Positions 8,943-20,471 of a DNA stretch of 64,000 nt are shown piece by piece. Both the position numbers and the translations under genes were made by a program. Source of the DNA: Parasporobacterium paucivorans DSM 15970. Its GTDB lineage: Bacteria > Bacillota > Clostridia > Lachnospirales > Lachnospiraceae. The notes below the pieces were generated by a model that saw nothing but the letters and a program-made list of their open reading frames with translations, was not told the origin of the DNA and did not search any database. The stretch spans positions 1 to 64,000 of the forward strand of contig NZ_FQYT01000009.1 of the NCBI RefSeq assembly GCF_900141895.1, given 5' to 3'. Each line of letters begins with the position of its first letter. The stretch's first letter is position 1.

Positions 8943-8957
8943 TATATAGTTAATATA
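8943..8957. repeat. attL core, left copy of a 15-bp direct repeat
   Basis: TATATAGTTAATATA here is identical to 20457-20471. In both copies a central TAGTTAA is flanked by inverted AT-rich arms, fitting a tyrosine-recombinase core with a ~7-bp crossover region. It lies just beyond the 3' end of the integrase gene and 20 bp from plsX. The low complexity of the repeat is the main reservation. Confidence 0.65.
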
Positions 8958-9098: not shown

Positions 9099-10331
9099 TC
9101 AGCATATCTTGATTTTTCCGCTCAGGTTCTGCATTACCTCTTCCGCTTTTTCCTTCGTGACGTGGCTGTATATATCCATTGTTGTACTAATTTTAGCATG
9201 CCCCATAATCTGCTGGATCGCCTTGATATTGTTTTCGTTCTCACAGAACCTAGTGCAGAATGTATGTCTGAGTGTGTGTGAGGTAAATTTAGGCAGCAGG
9301 ACCGGTGTCCTTTTCTCTTCACTTGCCTTTTTCTGCTCTTGTCTATTATGGGCTTCAACGATACTAATAATAGTTCTATTTAGGCCGCTAATAGTAAATG
9401 GCCTCCCTACATGAGAAGTGAATACAAAGCCACTGTACCCATCTATCTTATAGCTCCTATCAATTCCCATCATGAACTGAGCTTCCTTCTGTTGTATAAG
9501 CTGCTTTCTCAGGTCTTCAATAATTGGGATATATCTATTACTGGATTCCGTTTTAGGTGTAGTGATATAAAAATCATATTTTCCAGTAATCTTTAAATAT
9601 GAAAGTGTATGATTTACATATACAGTGTTATTTTTCAAGTCAACATCATCCCACGTCAACCCTGTTGCTTCTCCAATTCTACACCCAGTCCCCAGCATAA
9701 ATGAGAAAAATGGAAGATATGTTTTATAATAATTACTATTCGAAATAAAGTCAATAAATTTTGCTTGTTCTTCCAGAGTTAATGATATTCTTTTTTGACA
9801 ATCATTCTTTTTAATCTTCTTTAAGGCTCCAGTGCATGGGTTATCAATAATAAGCTTGTCTTCAACCGCATCCTTTAGACAGGTATTCATAATCGCATTG
9901 ATATATTTTAATGTATTATAAGACAAGTTGTGTTTTTTTACTAGTGTTTCATATGTCTGGACTATGTTCGGTCTCTTTATCTTACTTATCTGAAGATTAC
10001 CGATTTCGCTATCCTTGATATATAAATCCCAATAATTTTGATAAGTTGTCCTTGTGGAAATTTTAATACGAGCCTTGTAAAGCGTCAACCACTTTTCAAA
10101 CCAATCATTTAAGGTTATCTTCTCGTAATTCCGGACTACGCCATTCTGTATATCGGCTTCCTTCTGGATCACTCTCTTTTTCAGTTCCCCCAGGTTGCTA
10201 TCGACTAATACATGAGACTTTCCATCAACGCTCTTTCTCCAAATATACCGTAAATCTGTAAGCTGACTAATGTTCTGAGGTAATACAACGCCCCTTTGAT
10301 CCTTTCTACTTGCTTTTTTGTTGGTAGCCAT
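9099..10331 (-). CDS. int: Tyrosine recombinase / phage-type integrase
   Basis: A 410-residue site-specific recombinase. An N-terminal arm-binding region is followed by a core-binding SAM-like domain (~60-165) and the catalytic domain (~185-405). The catalytic residues are visible: R in TGCRIGEATGL, K in TPKTESSNRYIPI, H-x-x-R in HTLRHTFCTRF, H in GHAKISTT and the nucleophile Y in MDIYSHV. Similar in size to Tn916-type integrases. ATG 10331 is preferred over GTG 10340 because GGAG is then 8 nt away. The gene is adjacent to attL, and no terminator separates it from plsX, so read-through into plsX is possible. Confidence 0.95.
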   Translation of the reverse strand: MATNKKASRKDQRGVVLPQNISQLTDLRYIWRKSVDGKSHVLVDSNLGELKKRVIQKEADIQNGVVRNYEKITLNDWFEKWLTLYKARIKISTRTTYQNYWDLYIKDSEIGNLQISKIKRPNIVQTYETLVKKHNLSYNTLKYINAIMNTCLKDAVEDKLIIDNPCTGALKKIKKNDCQKRISLTLEEQAKFIDFISNSNYYKTYLPFFSFMLGTGCRIGEATGLTWDDVDLKNNTVYVNHTLSYLKITGKYDFYITTPKTESSNRYIPIIEDLRKQLIQQKEAQFMMGIDRSYKIDGYSGFVFTSHVGRPFTISGLNRTIISIVEAHNRQEQKKASEEKRTPVLLPKFTSHTLRHTFCTRFCENENNIKAIQQIMGHAKISTTMDIYSHVTKEKAEEVMQNLSGKIKIC

Positions 10332-10396
10332 GATATCCACTCCATTCCCTTATTGTGGCAGGCAGTAAGTGTTACCTACCGCCCACCAATTAATTA

Positions 10397-12497: not shown

Positions 12498-13382
12498 CTA
12501 TTCGCCCATCTGCTTCCGCTCTAATTCAAATAACATGAATGCAGTTCTCTCTGTGCTGCTTGTCCATGTGTTACCGCCTCGCCATGCACTTGCCATAATC
12601 TCCTGGTACTTCTCTTTAAGCTTCCGTGTTGATTTATCCTTGCGGATTTTATTCAATGCCCTGCTCTCTTCTCCCCTGGCTTGTCCGGTAGTCATGCCGA
12701 CTGATTCTCCTGCTGCCTTTAAGGATATATCGCTAAAATATCTCAATATCAATATTTCCTTTTCCGTATCGGTGCAGGCCGTGTCGATTATTGCCATTAA
12801 ATCGGCTTTTAATTCTTCATTAAACAAAGTATCAATCACATTGTCTTCAAGGCTGAAATGGTCGCTCAGAGTGTCACAGAGGCACATATCATCCCCTTCG
12901 ACTTGCAGTGGTGCATCAAGGTAAGCTATTTGTATACGCATAGCAGTATCTTTGATGTTGTCAAGCTGTGCCTGGTTAATATCCAAGTGGCCTTTATATT
13001 CTGCATCTATGGGCTTACGATTGTATTCCCTGAGATAGGCCGCTGTCACTTTGTTATACTTCTGTATGGAGCTGTTCAGGTATCGAGGAATTTTAACATC
13101 ATTGCAATTTTCCAAATAAGAGAATAATGCCTGCCGAATCCACCAGATCGCATAAGTCATAAATAGGCATCCGCTCCCGGCATCGTATTTATCTACTGCA
13201 CTGTGGATTCCCAGAAAGGCCTCCTGCATCAGGTCATCCATTTCAGAATATCCCTGAAATCGTGAGCAGATTTTATATAATAGCTTTTCATTCTGCCTAT
13301 AAAGAGTTTCCATGTTATCCCTTACATTTATGCCCTGCTGAATTTCTGCCACTAGCTCCTCATTTGTTGCCACACGTTCCAT
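12498..13382 (-). CDS. Sigma-70-family RNA polymerase sigma factor, element-encoded
   Basis: A 294-residue sigma factor. Region 2 covers ~28-95 (NEKLLYKICSRFQGYSEMDD, then LMQEAFLGIHSAVDKYD and the WWIRQAL -10-recognition helix), and a degenerate region 3 lies in the middle. Region 4 is near 200-255 (DTEKEILILRYFSDISLKAA and a helix-turn-helix GMTTGQARGEESRALNKIRK). A C-terminal tail of ~40 residues is not part of the usual domain. ATG 13382 has AAGGGGG 6 nt upstream. It is the last gene of the leftward cassette and presumably drives late or host genes from non-housekeeping promoters. Its targets are unknown. Confidence 0.85.
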   Translation of the reverse strand: MERVATNEELVAEIQQGINVRDNMETLYRQNEKLLYKICSRFQGYSEMDDLMQEAFLGIHSAVDKYDAGSGCLFMTYAIWWIRQALFSYLENCNDVKIPRYLNSSIQKYNKVTAAYLREYNRKPIDAEYKGHLDINQAQLDNIKDTAMRIQIAYLDAPLQVEGDDMCLCDTLSDHFSLEDNVIDTLFNEELKADLMAIIDTACTDTEKEILILRYFSDISLKAAGESVGMTTGQARGEESRALNKIRKDKSTRKLKEKYQEIMASAWRGGNTWTSSTERTAFMLFELERKQMGE

Positions 13383-13498
13383 AAACACCCCCTTAAAGTA
13401 ATTTTATAATGTTCCCTTATAACTTTGCTTGCCTATACACAAAAAGCCTTAAATGGGCAAATTATGACGTTGCTATGTACCCACAGTGATTAGGTTGA

Positions 13499-13723
13499 TT
13501 ATAAGCCTGCTTCTGCTTCTGCCCTCTTCTTCGCTCTGTACTTGCGAACACGCTCCCTATTTTTGGCTTTGGCAATTTCCTCGGCACACTCTGGGCAATG
13601 GTCGGATGCATAGACGTTTCCGTTTGTATACACCTTATTGCACACCGGGCAGACTGCATGAGGCATATTTATAAATCCATACTTTTCACTTGGTACCTTC
13701 TTCCAAAAAACGCTATTTGCCAT
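13499..13723 (-). CDS. Small zinc-ribbon protein, 74 aa
   Basis: A 74-residue protein with two CxxC knuckles (CPVCNKVY and HCPECAEEI, ~20 residues apart) forming a probable zinc ribbon, then a strongly basic helix AKNRERVRKYRAKKRAEAEA likely to contact nucleic acid. ATG 13723 is chosen because AGAAAGGAAG precedes it. Function unknown; it belongs to the element's leftward cassette of small nucleic-acid-binding proteins. Confidence 0.7.
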   Translation of the reverse strand: MANSVFWKKVPSEKYGFINMPHAVCPVCNKVYTNGNVYASDHCPECAEEIAKAKNRERVRKYRAKKRAEAEAGL

Positions 13724-13772
13724 GAAATATCGCTTCCTTTCTGTAAAAAATCCTTTATGTTGCAAAATGTTT

Positions 13773-14183: not shown

Positions 14184-14678
14184 TTAATAAGTGTAACTCT
14201 TAGCTACCATCTTCAAGCGTGTAGCCTGTGAGTATGGGTGTCTGTTCAGCTCCTGCCTGAGTTCCTGCACTCTGTCTTCTGCATCCTTCTCTATGGCTTT
14301 GATTTCATCGTGTAACATGCGCTGGTAGTTGGTGTACTCCTTGCCTGCTTCAAGTGCTTCCGGGCTTGCGTTCACATCATCCAGGGATGCTTTGATAATC
14401 CCTTTGAGGTTGGTGTTGTCAATGCTGCGTTCCAGTTTGATTTCCTTCTCGATTGCATCCGCTTTAAGTGTAAGTTCTTTGGTGGCTTCCGGGTCCAGCT
14501 CCATCATGATCTGGTACTGTACCTGTTCGAGATTGAATGAAAGTTCTTCGATTCTCCGGTGTACGATATCCCTTTTATCATCATAGGCTTTCTTTGTTTC
14601 AATAATCTTTTCCAATCTCTTTACATACACCTCGGCGTTGCTTGCTTTGTCCATGTTGAATACTAATTCTTTTTTCAT
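14184..14678 (-). CDS. Coiled-coil element protein, 164 aa
   Basis: A 164-residue highly charged protein that is almost entirely helical, with heptad-like stretches at ~12-60 (VYVKRLEKIIETKKAYDDKR) and ~110-150. It ends in a basic, aromatic tail (RLKMVAKSYTY). No enzymatic motif is visible. ATG 14678 has GAGG 9 nt upstream. It follows the cold-shock-like genes in the same direction. Not recognised as a named family; a structural or scaffold role is only a guess. Confidence 0.7.
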   Translation of the reverse strand: MKKELVFNMDKASNAEVYVKRLEKIIETKKAYDDKRDIVHRRIEELSFNLEQVQYQIMMELDPEATKELTLKADAIEKEIKLERSIDNTNLKGIIKASLDDVNASPEALEAGKEYTNYQRMLHDEIKAIEKDAEDRVQELRQELNRHPYSQATRLKMVAKSYTY

Positions 14679-14711
14679 TTGTGTTATCCTCATTCTTTCT
14701 ATTTGGTGTGG

Positions 14712-14930
14712 TTAGTTTATTGCAACTACGTTAACGGCTTCATTTCCTCGAATGGTTGTTGTCGTGTCATACTCAACGATCATGCCCTCTCTCAGGTCTT
14801 TCCAATCCGGGGTTAATACGTTGGCTGCCTGGAAGCTATAAGCCATAATATACCGGCCTTCTCTTCCTCTCGCTATCAGTCCGAATCCCTTATCTGTTAG
14901 CTTTATGATTCTGCCTATTTCCTTCTGCAT
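14712..14930 (-). CDS. Cold-shock-domain-like small protein, 72 aa
   Basis: A 72-residue protein with the beginning and end of an OB-fold cold-shock domain: EIGRIIKLTDKGFGLIARG matches the G-x-I-x-x-x-x-x-KGFGFI strand pair and EAVNVVAIN the terminal A-x-N-V strand. The central FVH RNA-binding motif of CspA is not conserved (IMAYSF), so binding may differ. ATG 14930 is chosen because the CSD starts there and GAGGG precedes it. It is one of two CSD-type genes in the element's leftward cassette. Confidence 0.6.
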   Translation of the reverse strand: MQKEIGRIIKLTDKGFGLIARGREGRYIMAYSFQAANVLTPDWKDLREGMIVEYDTTTTIRGNEAVNVVAIN

Positions 14931-14947
14931 TGCCGCCCTCTTCTCTC

Positions 14948-15160
14948 TTATACAGTTTTCTTTTTGAGTTCTTCGAGTTGCGCCCATGCCTCGTCCATTG
15001 CGGAAGCTGTGCAGCCTTCCCACTTATCAGACTTCATTTTATTAATTGATTCAATCATAACGGCTTCATTTTCTGTGATATAGCCGCCGGCCTTCTTAAC
15101 CTTTGCCCAGGCTTCAAGCTTAGATATTTCCTGTTTGGTCAATTTCTTTTTAAGATTCAT
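14948..15160 (-). CDS. Hypothetical element protein, 70 aa
   Basis: A 70-residue charged helical protein (KKLTKQEISKLEAWAKVKKA ... AWAQLEELKKKTV). Not recognised. ATG 15160 has AAGGAG 9 nt upstream and overlaps the stop of the tandem cold-shock-domain gene by 11 nt, implying translational coupling. It lies between the two cold-shock-type genes. Confidence 0.65.
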   Translation of the reverse strand: MNLKKKLTKQEISKLEAWAKVKKAGGYITENEAVMIESINKMKSDKWEGCTASAMDEAWAQLEELKKKTV

Positions 15161-15638
15161 TGTCTTCACTCCTTTCTGATTTTATTAACTTTATAGCAAT
15201 GGCTTCAGGTCCTTTTCTACCTTCCACGATATAAAATTGCATTATGTCGCCCTTGCACAGCTCCCTAAATTCGATATCAAGCAAGCTGTCTTGATGGAAG
15301 AACAGCGTTATAGGCCGTTCAGTCCTGTAATCTGCCTTTATAAAGCCGTATTTCCCTTCTGGCGATAGAAAGATAACCATGCCATGCTTTAAGCGTTCTT
15401 CTGGCTCTCTTCCTCGGACTATGTTTACGGCTATGGTGCCCTTCTCGGTATCCATAAGGTTAAATTCAACCGGGCATCCCCTGTAAAGAGTGTCAAAGTC
15501 CTGTGTGTCGCATGAGTGGAAGAAAGCCGATATAAAACCCTCTTCCGGTGTGATATCTGTTACGGCAATAAAGCCATATCCACCTGTTTCCTTTAGTGTC
15601 CGTATCAGTCCGCATCTGACTTCTGTCTGCATCTCCAT
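15150..15638 (-). CDS. Tandem cold-shock-domain protein, 162 aa
   Basis: Two cold-shock-like OB folds in one chain. Domain 1 (~8-78) has GLIRTLKETGGYGFIAV, a FFHSCDT RNA-binding strand and a closing GTIAVNIV. Domain 2 (~85-152) has GMVIFLSPEGKYGFIKAD, LFFHQDSL and EGRKGPEAIAIKLI. The F-F-H motifs correspond to the RNP2 region of CspA, so single-stranded RNA or DNA binding is likely. Most bacterial Csp proteins have a single domain, so the duplication is unusual. It starts 4 nt after the bS21-like gene and overlaps the next gene. Confidence 0.7.
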   Translation of the reverse strand: MEMQTEVRCGLIRTLKETGGYGFIAVTDITPEEGFISAFFHSCDTQDFDTLYRGCPVEFNLMDTEKGTIAVNIVRGREPEERLKHGMVIFLSPEGKYGFIKADYRTERPITLFFHQDSLLDIEFRELCKGDIMQFYIVEGRKGPEAIAIKLIKSERSEDNES

Positions 15639-15642
15639 TTCA

Positions 15643-15810
15643 TTAATTTCCTTTCGTATTTAATCGTTTCCACAGTGGTTGTTTGTGTCTGCGCATCGCA
15701 TCCATGTTCATATGTCGCAGAAAATCCCTTAATACCTTGCTGTCGGTGGTTTCTTTTGTAAAGCGTGTGATTAGTTCGTCCAGGCTCTCGCCATCTTTTC
15801 GATAAACCAT
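15643..15810 (-). CDS. Predicted bS21 (RpsU)-like small basic protein, 55 aa
   Basis: A 55-residue basic protein beginning MVYRKDGESLDELITRF. The N-terminal ESL-x4-RF segment and the following helix (KETTDSKVLRDFLRHM) match the layout of ribosomal protein bS21, whose consensus has NESLxxALRRFKR then SGxLxExRKRE. The C-terminus is shorter and less lysine-rich than in cellular S21. A very good SD (GAGAAGGGG) lies 5 nt before the ATG. It is first in the cassette with the cold-shock-domain genes, which supports a role at the ribosome or in mRNA handling. Homology is inferred by eye. Confidence 0.5.
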   Translation of the reverse strand: MVYRKDGESLDELITRFTKETTDSKVLRDFLRHMNMDAMRRHKQPLWKRLNTKGN

Positions 15811-16019
15811 GCTGCCCCTTCTCCCATCTGTCCATTTTTGTTTAAGTTTGAATCACTATATATATTTAAGCCGTACGGCATAATTCAATTATTTTGTTGC
15901 ATTCATTCAGGTAATCCGATTTGGATGCCCTGTTATAATAATCCTGTAATACCCTCCTAAAATATTACAAGCTTTGTTTCCTCCTCGATTCGTGCAGCGG
16001 ATCTGCAATAGTTGTTTTT

Positions 16020-16451
16020 CTATTCGCCTTTAGTACTGTCTACGATTTTTATTTTTTCAGGGCCTATCTTGTTTTTCAGCTCTTCTATCACATCATCCGA
16101 TACATCCCAGTCACAACGCATAACCCTTTTCTGCGCTTCATTTTGTAAATATACAATGATTTCGTTTTTTTCATTGGCATCTCCCCAATCTCTGTGGTTA
16201 TTATTATGAGAAATACCATCAAGATAATTCAAATGCTCTTCGGCTGCTTCCATGTCTTTGAACATTACCCATATTTGCCTTGTCCTTCTTATCACCGGTT
16301 CGGCTAATTCAACTAACACTTCTGCCAATGTCATGTTTCTTAACATGCATTTTTTGTTTTCCATTTTTAAAATACATCTGTCACAACTATCATATGAATC
16401 ACAGTGCTCCATGAGGTCCATGACCGTTGAGATTACTTGTTTATTCGTCAT
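16020..16451 (-). CDS. Hypothetical cysteine-containing element protein, 143 aa
   Basis: A 143-residue protein with four cysteines in the first 35 residues (CDSYDSCDRCILKMENKKC), a spacing that could bind zinc or an iron-sulfur cluster. A mixed charged C-terminal half follows. Function not recognised. AAAGGAG precedes the ATG. It lies between the iteron region and the bS21-like gene, reading leftward. Confidence 0.7.
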   Translation of the reverse strand: MTNKQVISTVMDLMEHCDSYDSCDRCILKMENKKCMLRNMTLAEVLVELAEPVIRRTRQIWVMFKDMEAAEEHLNYLDGISHNNNHRDWGDANEKNEIIVYLQNEAQKRVMRCDWDVSDDVIEELKNKIGPEKIKIVDSTKGE

Positions 16452-16478: not shown

Positions 16479-16820
16479 TCTACATTTTCTCTGATTCTAC
16501 ATTTGTCTACATTTGTGTTTTTCACAATGTAGCCGCTATAACCATTGATTTTACTAGCTTTTTAGCAATTTTCTACATTCTACATTTACGGTTCCAAATC
16601 TAGTATATATACACATAATTATTTATATATTTTCTATTTATTAATGGGTATAAAGAATGTAGATTGTAGATTATTCATTTAATCAACGTATTTATAAGGC
16701 TTTGCGGCTCTACATTGTGCTCTACATTTGTACTTTTTCTACATTTGTAAATGTAGAATTATGAAATTTCCCCTGGATAACCTTATTCTCCTGGTTAAGG
16801 ACTGGCTCAGATTCTACATT
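16479..16820. repeat. Iteron array, probable replication origin of the element
   Basis: About twelve copies of TCTACATTTG or its core. Direct copies begin at 16479, 16496, 16506, 16572, 16579, 16709, 16721, 16738 and 16813; inverted copies lie at 16525-16532, 16656-16663 and 16750-16757. Copies at 16496 and 16506 are perfect tandem decamers. A very AT-rich stretch (about 16600-16650) lies within the array and could be the melting region. Several copies overlap the 3' end of the helicase gene; its stop codon is inside one. Next to a primase and SF3 helicase this is the layout of an iteron-controlled origin. Confidence 0.7.
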
Positions 16821-18260
16821 AATCCTTATATTGATAAACACATCTGCTTTTGAATCAAGGGCATTTAATTGTTTTCCGTATGACAGGTTTCGCTTGTAAT
16901 TCTCTTCCCCTATATATTTTTTCATTTCCGAGGTGAAAATATACTGTGTTATCTTGAAATTCGTTAGATCAGGAAGGTCTCCGTAGCCTGTCCTAAGATG
17001 CCCTTCCTTGACCAGGTAACTTGTATATTCGGTATATAGGTCCCGGTTGCTGATTCTATCCTCTTTGTTATCCGTGAAAACAATACACTCTTTGAAAAAT
17101 TTATAAATTGTATCGGATGACATAAGCATTTCTTCCTGGTTGCTATAAATTTCGTCCGGGACCGTGAACTCCTGGTTGTTATCGATAAATATTTGCAGCT
17201 GTTCAATTGCCCTCTGAATCACATACTCCATATTGATTTTCTTTTCCAGGCCCTTCACCTGTTTGCTTTTTGGAATCGCATTCTTAAATTTATAGATAAG
17301 CATCCGTTCGCTGATTGATGATTTATCACTTACAAAGAAGTTTGGTACTGTGTTCCCAGAAAATATCAGCATAGCCTTGTTAACAAACTCAACGGAAGCT
17401 TTAAACTTCATGCTAGCGTTTACGGTATCGCCTCCGCTGAGCTGTTTTAGAAGTGTATCATTTGATACGTTCATAGCTGGTGTTTCTGCACAGATATTTG
17501 CTCTCTTTCCAATAATCCCGGCAAATTCTTTTGATAGCTCATCGGTTAATACTCTTAGTCCTACGTTGCTATAATCCCTGCTGCCATCTGAATTCGTTAA
17601 TAAGTTTTCTGCCAGATGCATGAATACGCTCTTTCCGGAATCCTTTACGCCGCTAAAATAAAATATATTCTTGAAGCTTCTGTACCCTGATATCAGCACT
17701 CCTAATATTTGATAGAGGAAGTTAATATCTTCTATGGAACCATTTGTTACACAGTCAAAATAGGAATCTGCAAACTTGCACCTTGCTGCATTCGGGTTAT
17801 AGTTGTATCCAACTTGATTGATAAAAATCAGCTTGTCGGCTTCCTCATCATCATATGCCTTGAAGTCCATCTTTCTGGTATCCAAAACACCATTGGCAAA
17901 ACTGATGTAATTTTCCGGTGCTAAATCCTCATCATTTATGATTAAATCGTAATCCATGCATAGCAGCTCTTCACAGTCTCGAATATTTGAAGGAATCCGA
18001 TATTCTTCTGGAATCGCTTTGCTTATCAGCAACTTGATATCATCAATCTGTGAATAATAATGATTTTTGCGAATTCTGAATTGCCCTTTATAAACCTTGA
18101 TGTCATATTCGCTCTTCATAAACATCGATAACTGTGGAACTGAAACTTTATAGCCTTTTTCGGGCCGCTGCGGATCCTTTGGAATTATGAATGTTTTTCC
18201 ATACGGTTGTTCTATATTCGTTTTTCCAATCTGTTCATTTAGTTCTTGTTGCGTTATCAC
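16722..18260 (-). CDS. SF3-family replicative helicase (phage/plasmid primase P4-type, C-terminal half)
   Basis: A 512-residue protein. The N-terminal ~190 residues resemble the D5-like N domain. An SF3 AAA+ helicase follows, with Walker A SGVKDSGKSVFMH near residue 205, Walker B ICAETPAMN near 258 and motif C AMLIFSGNTVPNF near 300. A winged-helix-like C-terminal region follows. It would unwind the element's origin with the separate prim-pol protein encoded 7 nt upstream; in many relatives the two are fused. Its last codons are built from iteron repeats. No terminator follows. Confidence 0.9.
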   Translation of the reverse strand: MITQQELNEQIGKTNIEQPYGKTFIIPKDPQRPEKGYKVSVPQLSMFMKSEYDIKVYKGQFRIRKNHYYSQIDDIKLLISKAIPEEYRIPSNIRDCEELLCMDYDLIINDEDLAPENYISFANGVLDTRKMDFKAYDDEEADKLIFINQVGYNYNPNAARCKFADSYFDCVTNGSIEDINFLYQILGVLISGYRSFKNIFYFSGVKDSGKSVFMHLAENLLTNSDGSRDYSNVGLRVLTDELSKEFAGIIGKRANICAETPAMNVSNDTLLKQLSGGDTVNASMKFKASVEFVNKAMLIFSGNTVPNFFVSDKSSISERMLIYKFKNAIPKSKQVKGLEKKINMEYVIQRAIEQLQIFIDNNQEFTVPDEIYSNQEEMLMSSDTIYKFFKECIVFTDNKEDRISNRDLYTEYTSYLVKEGHLRTGYGDLPDLTNFKITQYIFTSEMKKYIGEENYKRNLSYGKQLNALDSKADVFINIRINVESEPVLNQENKVIQGKFHNSTFTNVEKVQM

Positions 18261-18267
18261 TTTTTTC

Positions 18268-19059
18268 TCACCTACCTTTCTCTCGTAGTCTTAATGCACT
18301 TTTCAGTTTTTTTCTAATTGTGTGTTCTGGTAATGGTGGTAAACAATTTTCCTGATTAACTTGGAACATAAGCATTAATGCCTTTTCATCATCAACTCCC
18401 TTTGCCAACAGTGAGCAGGCAAGCCTGAACATCACATCATCTCGTTCGCCCTGGAGTATCTGCTCCGGAAGTGTGAATCTGTTACCATTTGCTATCTTTT
18501 GTTCCTTTTTGTACTGCATTCCATCAATGATGAATTTGAACACTTGATCATCAGCCCTTGCCAGTCCATTGTCATATGAGGAACACTCAAAAATATATCT
18601 TTTTCCGCTTGGGCCAATGCTTGGCGGTGCGATTATGCATCCACCTTCGCCCCGGATGTCAACTCCTGAAGTCGAATCAAATAACCCTTGCGTACTATCT
18701 ACCACCAAATCACTCTGATAATATAAATGTGTTCCCCCAGAGGCTGATATAACTTCGATAGTCGGCGGCAGCTCTCCGTTTTGTCTTTCCCATTCTCTGA
18801 GATAATCAAGGCCGTTTATGTCCAGGTCCGGCTTTAAATCAAAATCTAGCACTATCAGCCCCTTAGACTTTTCTCCGGTTGCTATTGCAATGTTTGCATT
18901 AGGCCATCTCTGAAACCACTTTATTACCTGCTCCCGGTCCTTTGAAGCATCATTGAAACCATGCTCCGTCAAGAATCGGCTCTTGCTCCGGCTTTCAAGT
19001 GGTACAATGGAAAAACCTTGCTCAATATAAGATAATGCAAATTTCATCATGTAAACCAC
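18268..19059 (-). CDS. Bifunctional DNA primase/polymerase (prim-pol)
   Basis: A 263-residue AEP-type primase. The metal-binding motif is LDFDLKP near residue 71, the nucleotide-binding H lies in GGTHLYY near 108, and the third motif is VDIRGEGGCIIAPPS near 132. A PriCT-like C-terminal domain covers about 190-260 (LACSLLAKGVDDEKALMLM). The start is GTG 19059 with GGAG 5 nt upstream; ATG 19050 is an alternative. Primes replication of the element together with the SF3 helicase. Confidence 0.9.
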   Translation of the reverse strand: MVYMMKFALSYIEQGFSIVPLESRSKSRFLTEHGFNDASKDREQVIKWFQRWPNANIAIATGEKSKGLIVLDFDLKPDLDINGLDYLREWERQNGELPPTIEVISASGGTHLYYQSDLVVDSTQGLFDSTSGVDIRGEGGCIIAPPSIGPSGKRYIFECSSYDNGLARADDQVFKFIIDGMQYKKEQKIANGNRFTLPEQILQGERDDVMFRLACSLLAKGVDDEKALMLMFQVNQENCLPPLPEHTIRKKLKSALRLREKGR

Positions 19060-19086: not shown

Positions 19087-19293
19087 TTATACAGATAATT
19101 CATCCAGGAGGAATTTATCAATCTTTTCCCGGTGAAATCTCCGGACCTTCCCGAATCTTATGTTTCCTTCACACATATCAGCGATCTTGGAGATTGAATT
19201 GGCTCCCATTGAATAACGCTGCTTTGCCTGCTCCAATGTTAATGCTATAACTTGATCTAAATTAACTTCCTGAGTTTCTAGTGCTCGTCCCAT
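19087..19293 (-). CDS. Small excisionase-like DNA-binding protein, 68 aa
   Basis: A 68-residue protein with a MerR/excisionase-like fold: a LTLEQAKQRYSMGANSISKI helix-turn-helix followed by a short wing and a C-terminal FHREKIDKFLLDEL helix, as in small proteins preceding replication genes in Firmicute mobile elements. AGGGAG precedes the ATG. It lies between the XRE gene and the prim-pol gene in one leftward operon. Could be a recombination directionality factor or a copy-control regulator. Confidence 0.65.
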   Translation of the reverse strand: MGRALETQEVNLDQVIALTLEQAKQRYSMGANSISKIADMCEGNIRFGKVRRFHREKIDKFLLDELSV

Positions 19294-19701: not shown

Positions 19702-20304
19702 ATGAATCTAGGAGAAAAAATAAAAACCATTAGATTATATAAAGGAATGAAACAATCTGAATTAGCTGACAAAGCCTCTATTTCAAGAGTTTCAATTGGT
19801 AATTATGAGAGGGGAGATAGAATTCCAAGTACGGAAATTTTATTTAAGATTGCTGCAGCTCTAGAAGTACCTGTATGGGATTTACTTGGAATAGATAAAC
19901 AGCAAGCGATTAATGAAATCGATTCCCCTGATGAAAACAATGGATTGAATTATAAAAGTCTGCTGGATCAGGAAGAAAGACAGAAAAAAGATAAACTTAG
20001 GGAGAAACTCAAAGAAGGCGATAAAGGAATGGCTCAAGATGAATTATTTGATATTGTCGACAATCTTAGTCATTTTAATGTTCGTGAAGGTTTATCTGAA
20101 AGTGAACTAAAAAGGATAACTTGTTTTTTTAACAGCTATAATTGTGACTTTTCATATAACTATGCCAGTGAAAGATATATATTGAAAAACAATAAAACCG
20201 ACAAGGAAATACTTATTTCCGCAAGTGAATTGATTGACTTTGTAAGTGAGGTAATGTTCACGATTGAAGAGAAGATAAAGGAACTATTCTTCACATATGA
20301 ATAA
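19702..20304 (+). CDS. XRE-family repressor with C-terminal extension, 200 aa
   Basis: A 200-residue regulator. An N-terminal HTH_3 domain covers residues 1-65 (KQSELADKASISRVSIGNYE then VPVWDLLGID). A charged linker follows, then a ~100-residue C-terminal domain of mixed helix and strand that I do not recognise. No S24 peptidase (LexA/CI) motif is visible, so self-cleavage on SOS induction is not supported. Likely the master repressor, controlling both itself and the replication operon through the shared operators. Followed by a strong terminator. Confidence 0.85.
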   Translation: MNLGEKIKTIRLYKGMKQSELADKASISRVSIGNYERGDRIPSTEILFKIAAALEVPVWDLLGIDKQQAINEIDSPDENNGLNYKSLLDQEERQKKDKLREKLKEGDKGMAQDELFDIVDNLSHFNVREGLSESELKRITCFFNSYNCDFSYNYASERYILKNNKTDKEILISASELIDFVSEVMFTIEEKIKELFFTYE

Positions 20305-20456: not shown

Positions 20457-20471
20457 TATATAGTTAATATA
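20457..20471. repeat. attR core, right copy of the 15-bp direct repeat
   Basis: TATATAGTTAATATA, identical to 8943-8957. Here it is embedded in a larger inverted repeat, TTTAGTATA-TAGTTAA-TATACTAAA (20452-20476), with the same central 7 bp as the left copy. Confidence 0.65.

Follow-up and report, generated by a model that had tools for sequence, protein, structure and literature searches.

The window analysed here is a stretch of 64 kb (64,000 nucleotides) and contains a small integrative element of 11.5 kb, which has an integrase, terminal direct repeats, a primase/helicase and a repressor, and which carries the 55-aa gene that is the subject of this report. The terminal repeat is TATATAGTTAATATA, 15 bp, a putative att site with its left copy at 8943–8957 and its right copy at 20457–20471; only these two copies occur within the 64-kb window, and 300 Markov shuffles of both end regions gave a longest repeat of 13 bp as compared to the 15 bp observed. 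Two repeats of the TTGTATCAAA type are located near each end of the element, just inside. The element has a GC content of 38.5%, as compared to 42.5% in the remainder of the window, and the flanking genes are, as recognised from their translations, presumably plsX and gdhA.

On the minus strand the element encodes a tyrosine integrase (9099–10340, PF00589 E 3.6e-28), a sigma-70 family factor with regions 2 and 4 (12498–13388, PF04542 E 2.7e-17, PF04545 E 3.2e-7), a small zinc-ribbon-like protein with weak sub-threshold matches (13499–13765), and a 169-aa ORF (14184–14693) which has no match at E <= 1e-4 in the other 298 of the 299 family genomes and a weak tail-needle match in PHROGs (E 0.067). 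The cold-shock genes and the 55-aa ORF come next and are treated below, followed, on the same strand, by a 143-aa ORF (16020–16451) upstream of the 55-aa ORF, a D5/P4-type primase-helicase (16722–18260, PF19263, PF03288, phrog_864 E 2.5e-50), a Prim-Pol primase-polymerase (18268–19059, PF09250 E 1.1e-32, PF08708) and an excisionase-like DNA-binding protein (DUF6462, 19087–19293). An XRE-type repressor is encoded on the plus strand (19702–20304), and the element in total has four XRE-type regulators and three cold-shock domains. No capsid, terminase, packaging or relaxase family was found among the 19 element ORFs searched against Pfam and the 10 searched against PHROGs; helper-hijacking or packaging genes could be present among the unassigned ORFs.

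The repeat TCTACATT forms an iteron-like cluster at 16479–16820, which lies around the point where the D5 helicase gene ends, reaching into its 3' end, and around the space between this gene and the 143-aa ORF. The 64-kb window has ten direct copies, of which nine fall here, together with both copies of the inverse form AATGTAGA, and the array is possibly the replication origin of the element. A plain σ70 promoter scan returned 26 sites where 24.7 were expected, and nothing in the element scored above the gathering score in an Rfam scan. OLE RNA, described as a known partner of ribosomal protein bS21 (PMC12054373), has no match in the host genome or in any of the control genomes, so that this negative carries little weight.

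The 55-aa ORF starts with an ATG at 15810 on the minus strand, and its 55 codons fill the span 15643–15810. It is a real small gene of the integrative element. The basic frame of 55 residues reported in the earlier note thus exists, with a net charge of +5 (residues 30–55 contribute +6 and residues 1–29 -1), but it is on the minus strand; forward frame 1 of the same span meets three stops. The codon score is 0.15 with host usage and 0.23 with element usage, which is better than 53 of 55 and 54 of 55, respectively, of same-size frames nested in known genes. An overlapping rival frame of 76 codons (15605–15835) is not far behind with 0.09 and 0.17, and the host-usage score of the 55-codon frame is lower than those of all ten host and nine element comparison genes (at least 0.17), so that the codon support is only moderate. 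The Shine-Dalgarno sequence GAGAAGGGGCAGCATG (GAAGGGG) is located 4 nt ahead of the ATG and was graded as fair, not excellent as had been proposed. In the upstream gap, 15811–16019, two strong AGGAGG-like motifs, GAGGAGGAAAC and TAGGAGGGTATT, were seen by eye, and no evident ATG frame was seen behind them.

Only 4 nt separate the stop of the 55-codon frame from the ATG of the next gene, 15638–15150 on the minus strand, which encodes a tandem cold-shock-domain (CSD) protein of 162 aa with two PF00313 stretches (E 5e-19) and has its Shine-Dalgarno sequence AAAGGA overlapping the final codons of the 55-aa ORF. From this geometry the two genes are probably translationally coupled, and the placing of the 55-aa gene on an island in the company of cold-shock genes is borne out. 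The same gene run includes a 73-aa ORF with a good codon score (14948–15169, minus strand), and a single cold-shock domain is found in the ORF at 14712–15023 on the minus strand, where PF00313 matches residues 43–101 with E 1.4e-4, under the Pfam cut-off. A CSD model from which this ORF had been left out recovered it as well, and its translation probably begins at an internal ATG, giving about 72 aa. The CSD profile detects 13 of 13 known CSD loci, as compared to 2 of 13 with a motif search, and also a held-out third CSD of the window. With this profile no cold-shock domain was detected within 2.5 kb of rpsU at any of the 8 places inspected in plasmid records (best E 1.7), and none was detected next to 31 rpsU genes of the family (best E 0.28, with flanks of up to about 1.5 kb), indicating that a pairing of rpsU with cold-shock genes is not general.

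The earlier note had identified the 55-aa product as a bS21-like ribosomal protein. The resemblance lies in about residues 2–33, and bS21 ranks first among the families of two curated libraries. PF01165 of Pfam gives 18.6 bits (E 0.0015; gathering score 27), with protein residues 2–33 aligned in register to model positions 2–33, and in NCBIfam TIGR00030 gives 15.7 bits (E 0.0096; equivalog cut-off 28.95); both scores fall short of the curated cut-offs, and a profile-profile comparison by hhalign gave a probability of 25% with E 7.6e-4 for one comparison over 30 columns. When the host genome is ranked by PF01165 its rpsU comes first with 83.7 bits, the 55-aa ORF second with 16.4 bits (E 0.02) and the third frame has E 0.44. 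The motif had been read as ESL-x4-RF, but the actual spacing is ESL-x5-RF (E8 S9 L10 and R16 F17), as in the ETL-x5-RF of host bS21, and this E-S/T-L-x5-R-F segment leading into helix 1 is common to rpsU of other genomes. Among 23,187 frames (19,104 distinct), the 55-aa frame ranked first of the non-rpsU frames, which have no EKPS segment, with both bS21 models built here, scoring 10.1 bits with one model (next such frame 8.8) and 12.0 bits with the other (next 8.9).

The resemblance is also recovered in the reverse direction. With the 55-aa protein alone as query in the collected loci, a sample rich in rpsU in which 31 of the searched loci had been chosen for this gene, the six best non-self frames were rpsU and the seventh was not. 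A search of 391 genomes of the class, drawn without regard to bS21, gave 11 weak non-self matches at E <= 0.05, five of them chromosomal rpsU genes (L121, L124, L126, L127 and L128) and the others three ABC-ATPase-like proteins, two matches to a different long protein and a single broken frame. The five rpsU matches align to residues 4–45 (4–44 in one case) and depend on one shared motif, and as they come from only two bacterial families they amount to about two independent observations.

Beyond the first part of the protein the likeness disappears. With host bS21 the 55-aa protein has 7 of 32 residues identical up to residue 32 and 0 of 23 beyond it, and with the rpsU product of L128 the corresponding figures are 11 of 32 and 1 of 23. 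None of the five columns that are invariant among nine bacterial and phage bS21s (A15, K20, G27, K40 and P41 in host numbering) is kept, and the basic C-terminal segment EKPSxKRKKK is absent. The bS21 resemblance accordingly holds up for about the first 32 residues, which give the top match in two curated libraries and recover rpsU, but not as membership of the family, and since the ribosome-anchoring part of S21 is missing it is not yet justified to name the protein a copy of S21.

Searches for close relatives of the 55-aa protein gave none in viral contigs, also with a small alignment as query, none in genome contigs or the 298 other family genomes, and none in phage and plasmid records, where only unrelated genes with E 4 or worse appeared. 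A search at the genus level, which covered one genome, that of the host itself, was also empty. The tandem-CSD gene has no match at E <= 1e-12 among the 298 other genomes of the family set (299 in all). In 13 viral loci with CSD matches, and in 40 stretches surrounding some of the distant D5-helicase matches, no frame other than rpsU and the candidate itself scored above 8.9 bits with the bS21 models.

Tentatively, and at somewhat under an even chance, we favour the reading that the 55-aa protein is a bS21-like protein which has diverged strongly and lost the anchor, and which works with the cold-shock proteins in association with RNA. The N-terminal part of bS21 would be the source of the first 32 residues or so, with the remainder diverged into a different basic tail. 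Made jointly with the tandem cold-shock protein, such a product might be an accessory associated with RNA or with the 30S subunit that acts on element mRNAs at initiation, and would not be an exchangeable copy of bS21. PMC9578407 places one of the bS21 paralogues of Francisella downstream of cspC in what appears to be an operon, which is a precedent for the pairing of the 55-aa ORF with a CSD gene.

Nearly as likely as this diverged bS21-like reading is a chance resemblance, a serious contender in which the element encodes a small basic orphan protein with a fortuitous KDGESLD-x4-RF stretch and a function unrelated to ribosomes, perhaps as an RNA or protein cofactor of its neighbours. The bS21 scores are sub-threshold only, and the C-terminal half is unrelated to bS21. 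Composition-matched shuffles reached the candidate's score in 2 of 20,000 cases (19,220 scored) with one bS21 model and in 4 of 20,000 (19,491 scored) with the other, and many ORFs compared with many families will occasionally yield such matches. In 36 whole genomes of the family, most of which had been picked for multiple hits (33 with three or more PF01165 hits, and three odd ones), 4 places had chance PF01165 scores of at least 16.4 bits, a count that omits the pieces in G005 and a presumed rpsU fragment with 23.8 bits (G245:C155). A frame that overlaps a kinase gene in another reading frame scores 9.6 bits with the 55-aa protein as query. A PDB sequence search up to E 10 returned four unrelated chains (E 0.37–1.1) and no bS21, although the control search with host bS21 found 29 distinct bS21 sequences, and in PHROGs there was no match to a ribosomal protein. 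Against chance stand the top rank of bS21 in two libraries, the register of the alignment from the N-terminus, the right size, the blind recovery of rpsU, and the result that none of 60 shuffles of the protein matched any Pfam family at E <= 0.01.

When 11 weak PF01165 places were inspected, one was a duplicated and interrupted rpsU (G005), one lay off-frame in the kinase gene, and the remaining nine were judged spurious by eye from their translations. The G005 genome, with 6% contamination, has two extra rpsU copies on one short contig (L142, G005:C11), each split over two frames. Equally good sub-threshold Pfam hits are also given by two ORFs neighbouring the 55-aa ORF, EAD9 and DUF7564, both with E 0.0018, and these are probably meaningless.

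A working bS21 paralogue that enters the host 30S subunit and biases translation towards mRNAs of the element or a helper, as proposed for phage bS21, appears improbable. In its favour, E. coli ribosomes can take up phage bS21 according to PMC6375957, with in vitro translation then at about 5%, and translation is altered by the Francisella bS21 paralogues in the account of PMC9578407. The placing of bS21 near the anti-Shine-Dalgarno region, on which the earlier note relied, agrees with PMC9723584, where the N-terminal helix is described as lying over this region, where mRNA would bind. The same source, however, has bS21 anchored to 16S rRNA by the C-terminal helix, and the entire EKPS/basic segment is absent here. 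It describes bacterial and phage bS21 as highly divergent in their C-terminal regions, and phage bS21s as resembling the bacterial proteins at the ribosome-binding part and differing at the mRNA side, which is the reverse of what is seen in the 55-aa protein. Host bS21, moreover, is intact and normal, with 58 aa. As the whole EKPS/basic segment is missing, the 55-aa protein is not expected to replace bS21 in the subunit, and a module that retunes host ribosomes is for this reason unlikely in the form first stated.

Equally improbable is a DNA-binding regulator of the operon of the ribbon-helix-helix type (strand, helix, helix). Small regulators are common on such elements, and the single-sequence AlphaFold2 model has this order of extended segment and helices, with a short extended start and helices at residues 10–20, 24–42 and 46–52 (mean pLDDT 69.6). 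The strand would be very short, however, being confined to residues 1–9, and the four Pfam hits of the protein up to E 10, a list from which the HMMER filters drop most weak matches, include DUF7557 (E 0.029) and no recognised ribbon-helix-helix family. Nor was any such protein among the fold hits: Foldseek against PDB and BFVD up to E 10 found nothing significant and no bS21, which is weak evidence with a low-confidence model of a tiny protein, and VIA-align on the seven chains from Foldseek gave nothing at Z >= 2. The predicted structure has two main helices, like bS21, but matched no bS21 in the fold searches. A coupling or leader frame that mainly carries ribosomes onto the tandem-CSD gene, with a peptide of little importance, would suit the 4-nt gap and the Shine-Dalgarno sequence inside the last codons but is highly unlikely in view of the coding-like codon usage and the family-like sequence.

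To return to the diverged bS21-like reading, the element might, more speculatively, have an RNA-control module composed of the anchor-less bS21-derived peptide, the tandem-CSD protein, the further CSD protein and its own sigma factor, which would steer transcription and translation initiation of the host to element genes; we consider this doubtful. If the homology is real, the mobile-element relatives of bS21, so far those of large phages and plasmids, would come to include one on a small integrative element, and a variant with the N-terminal mRNA-side segment but without the rRNA anchor would be a natural test of that half alone. If the resemblance is due to chance, it is a caution against naming proteins of 55 residues from one short motif.

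The presence of bS21 on phages (PMC6375957, PMC9723584) and of rpsU in plasmid records is already known, in line with the statement in the earlier note that phage-encoded homologues occur. In titles and abstract openings among the literature matches listed, most subscription papers being outside this scope, none reported bS21 on a small integrative element. Compared to bS21 itself (PF01165, TIGR00030), the 55-aa protein has the same N-terminal K-D/E-G/N-E-S-L-D-x4-R-F segment, a basic C-terminal half, two main predicted helices and a similar length (55 aa, and 58 aa in the host), but differs in scoring under both curated cut-offs, in lacking A15, K20, G27, K40, P41 and the EKPSxKRKKK segment, and in being less basic (+5 as compared to +12). 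With the bS21 of pelagiphage HTVC008M and of large freshwater phages (PMC6375957, PMC9723584) it shares the location of a bS21-related sequence on a mobile element; HTVC008M bS21 retains a YEKPSEKK segment (L118) whereas the 55-aa protein has no such segment, and the phage genes are described in PMC6375957 from large cultivated phage genomes above 130 kb, mostly of lytic viruses, in contrast to an integrated element of 11.5 kb. Plasmid rpsU genes, for example in Acinetobacter, Nostoc and Burkholderia, are similar in that bS21 is found in records filed as plasmids, some of them chromosome-sized, but these are true bS21 sequences, and the CSD profile detected no cold-shock domain within 2.5 kb at any of the 8 places inspected. 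Francisella bS21-1, downstream of cspC, likewise has a bS21-type gene beside a cold-shock-protein gene, but is a true bS21: in PMC9578407 the Francisella homologues are given as 51–60% identical to E. coli bS21 and as incorporated into ribosomes.
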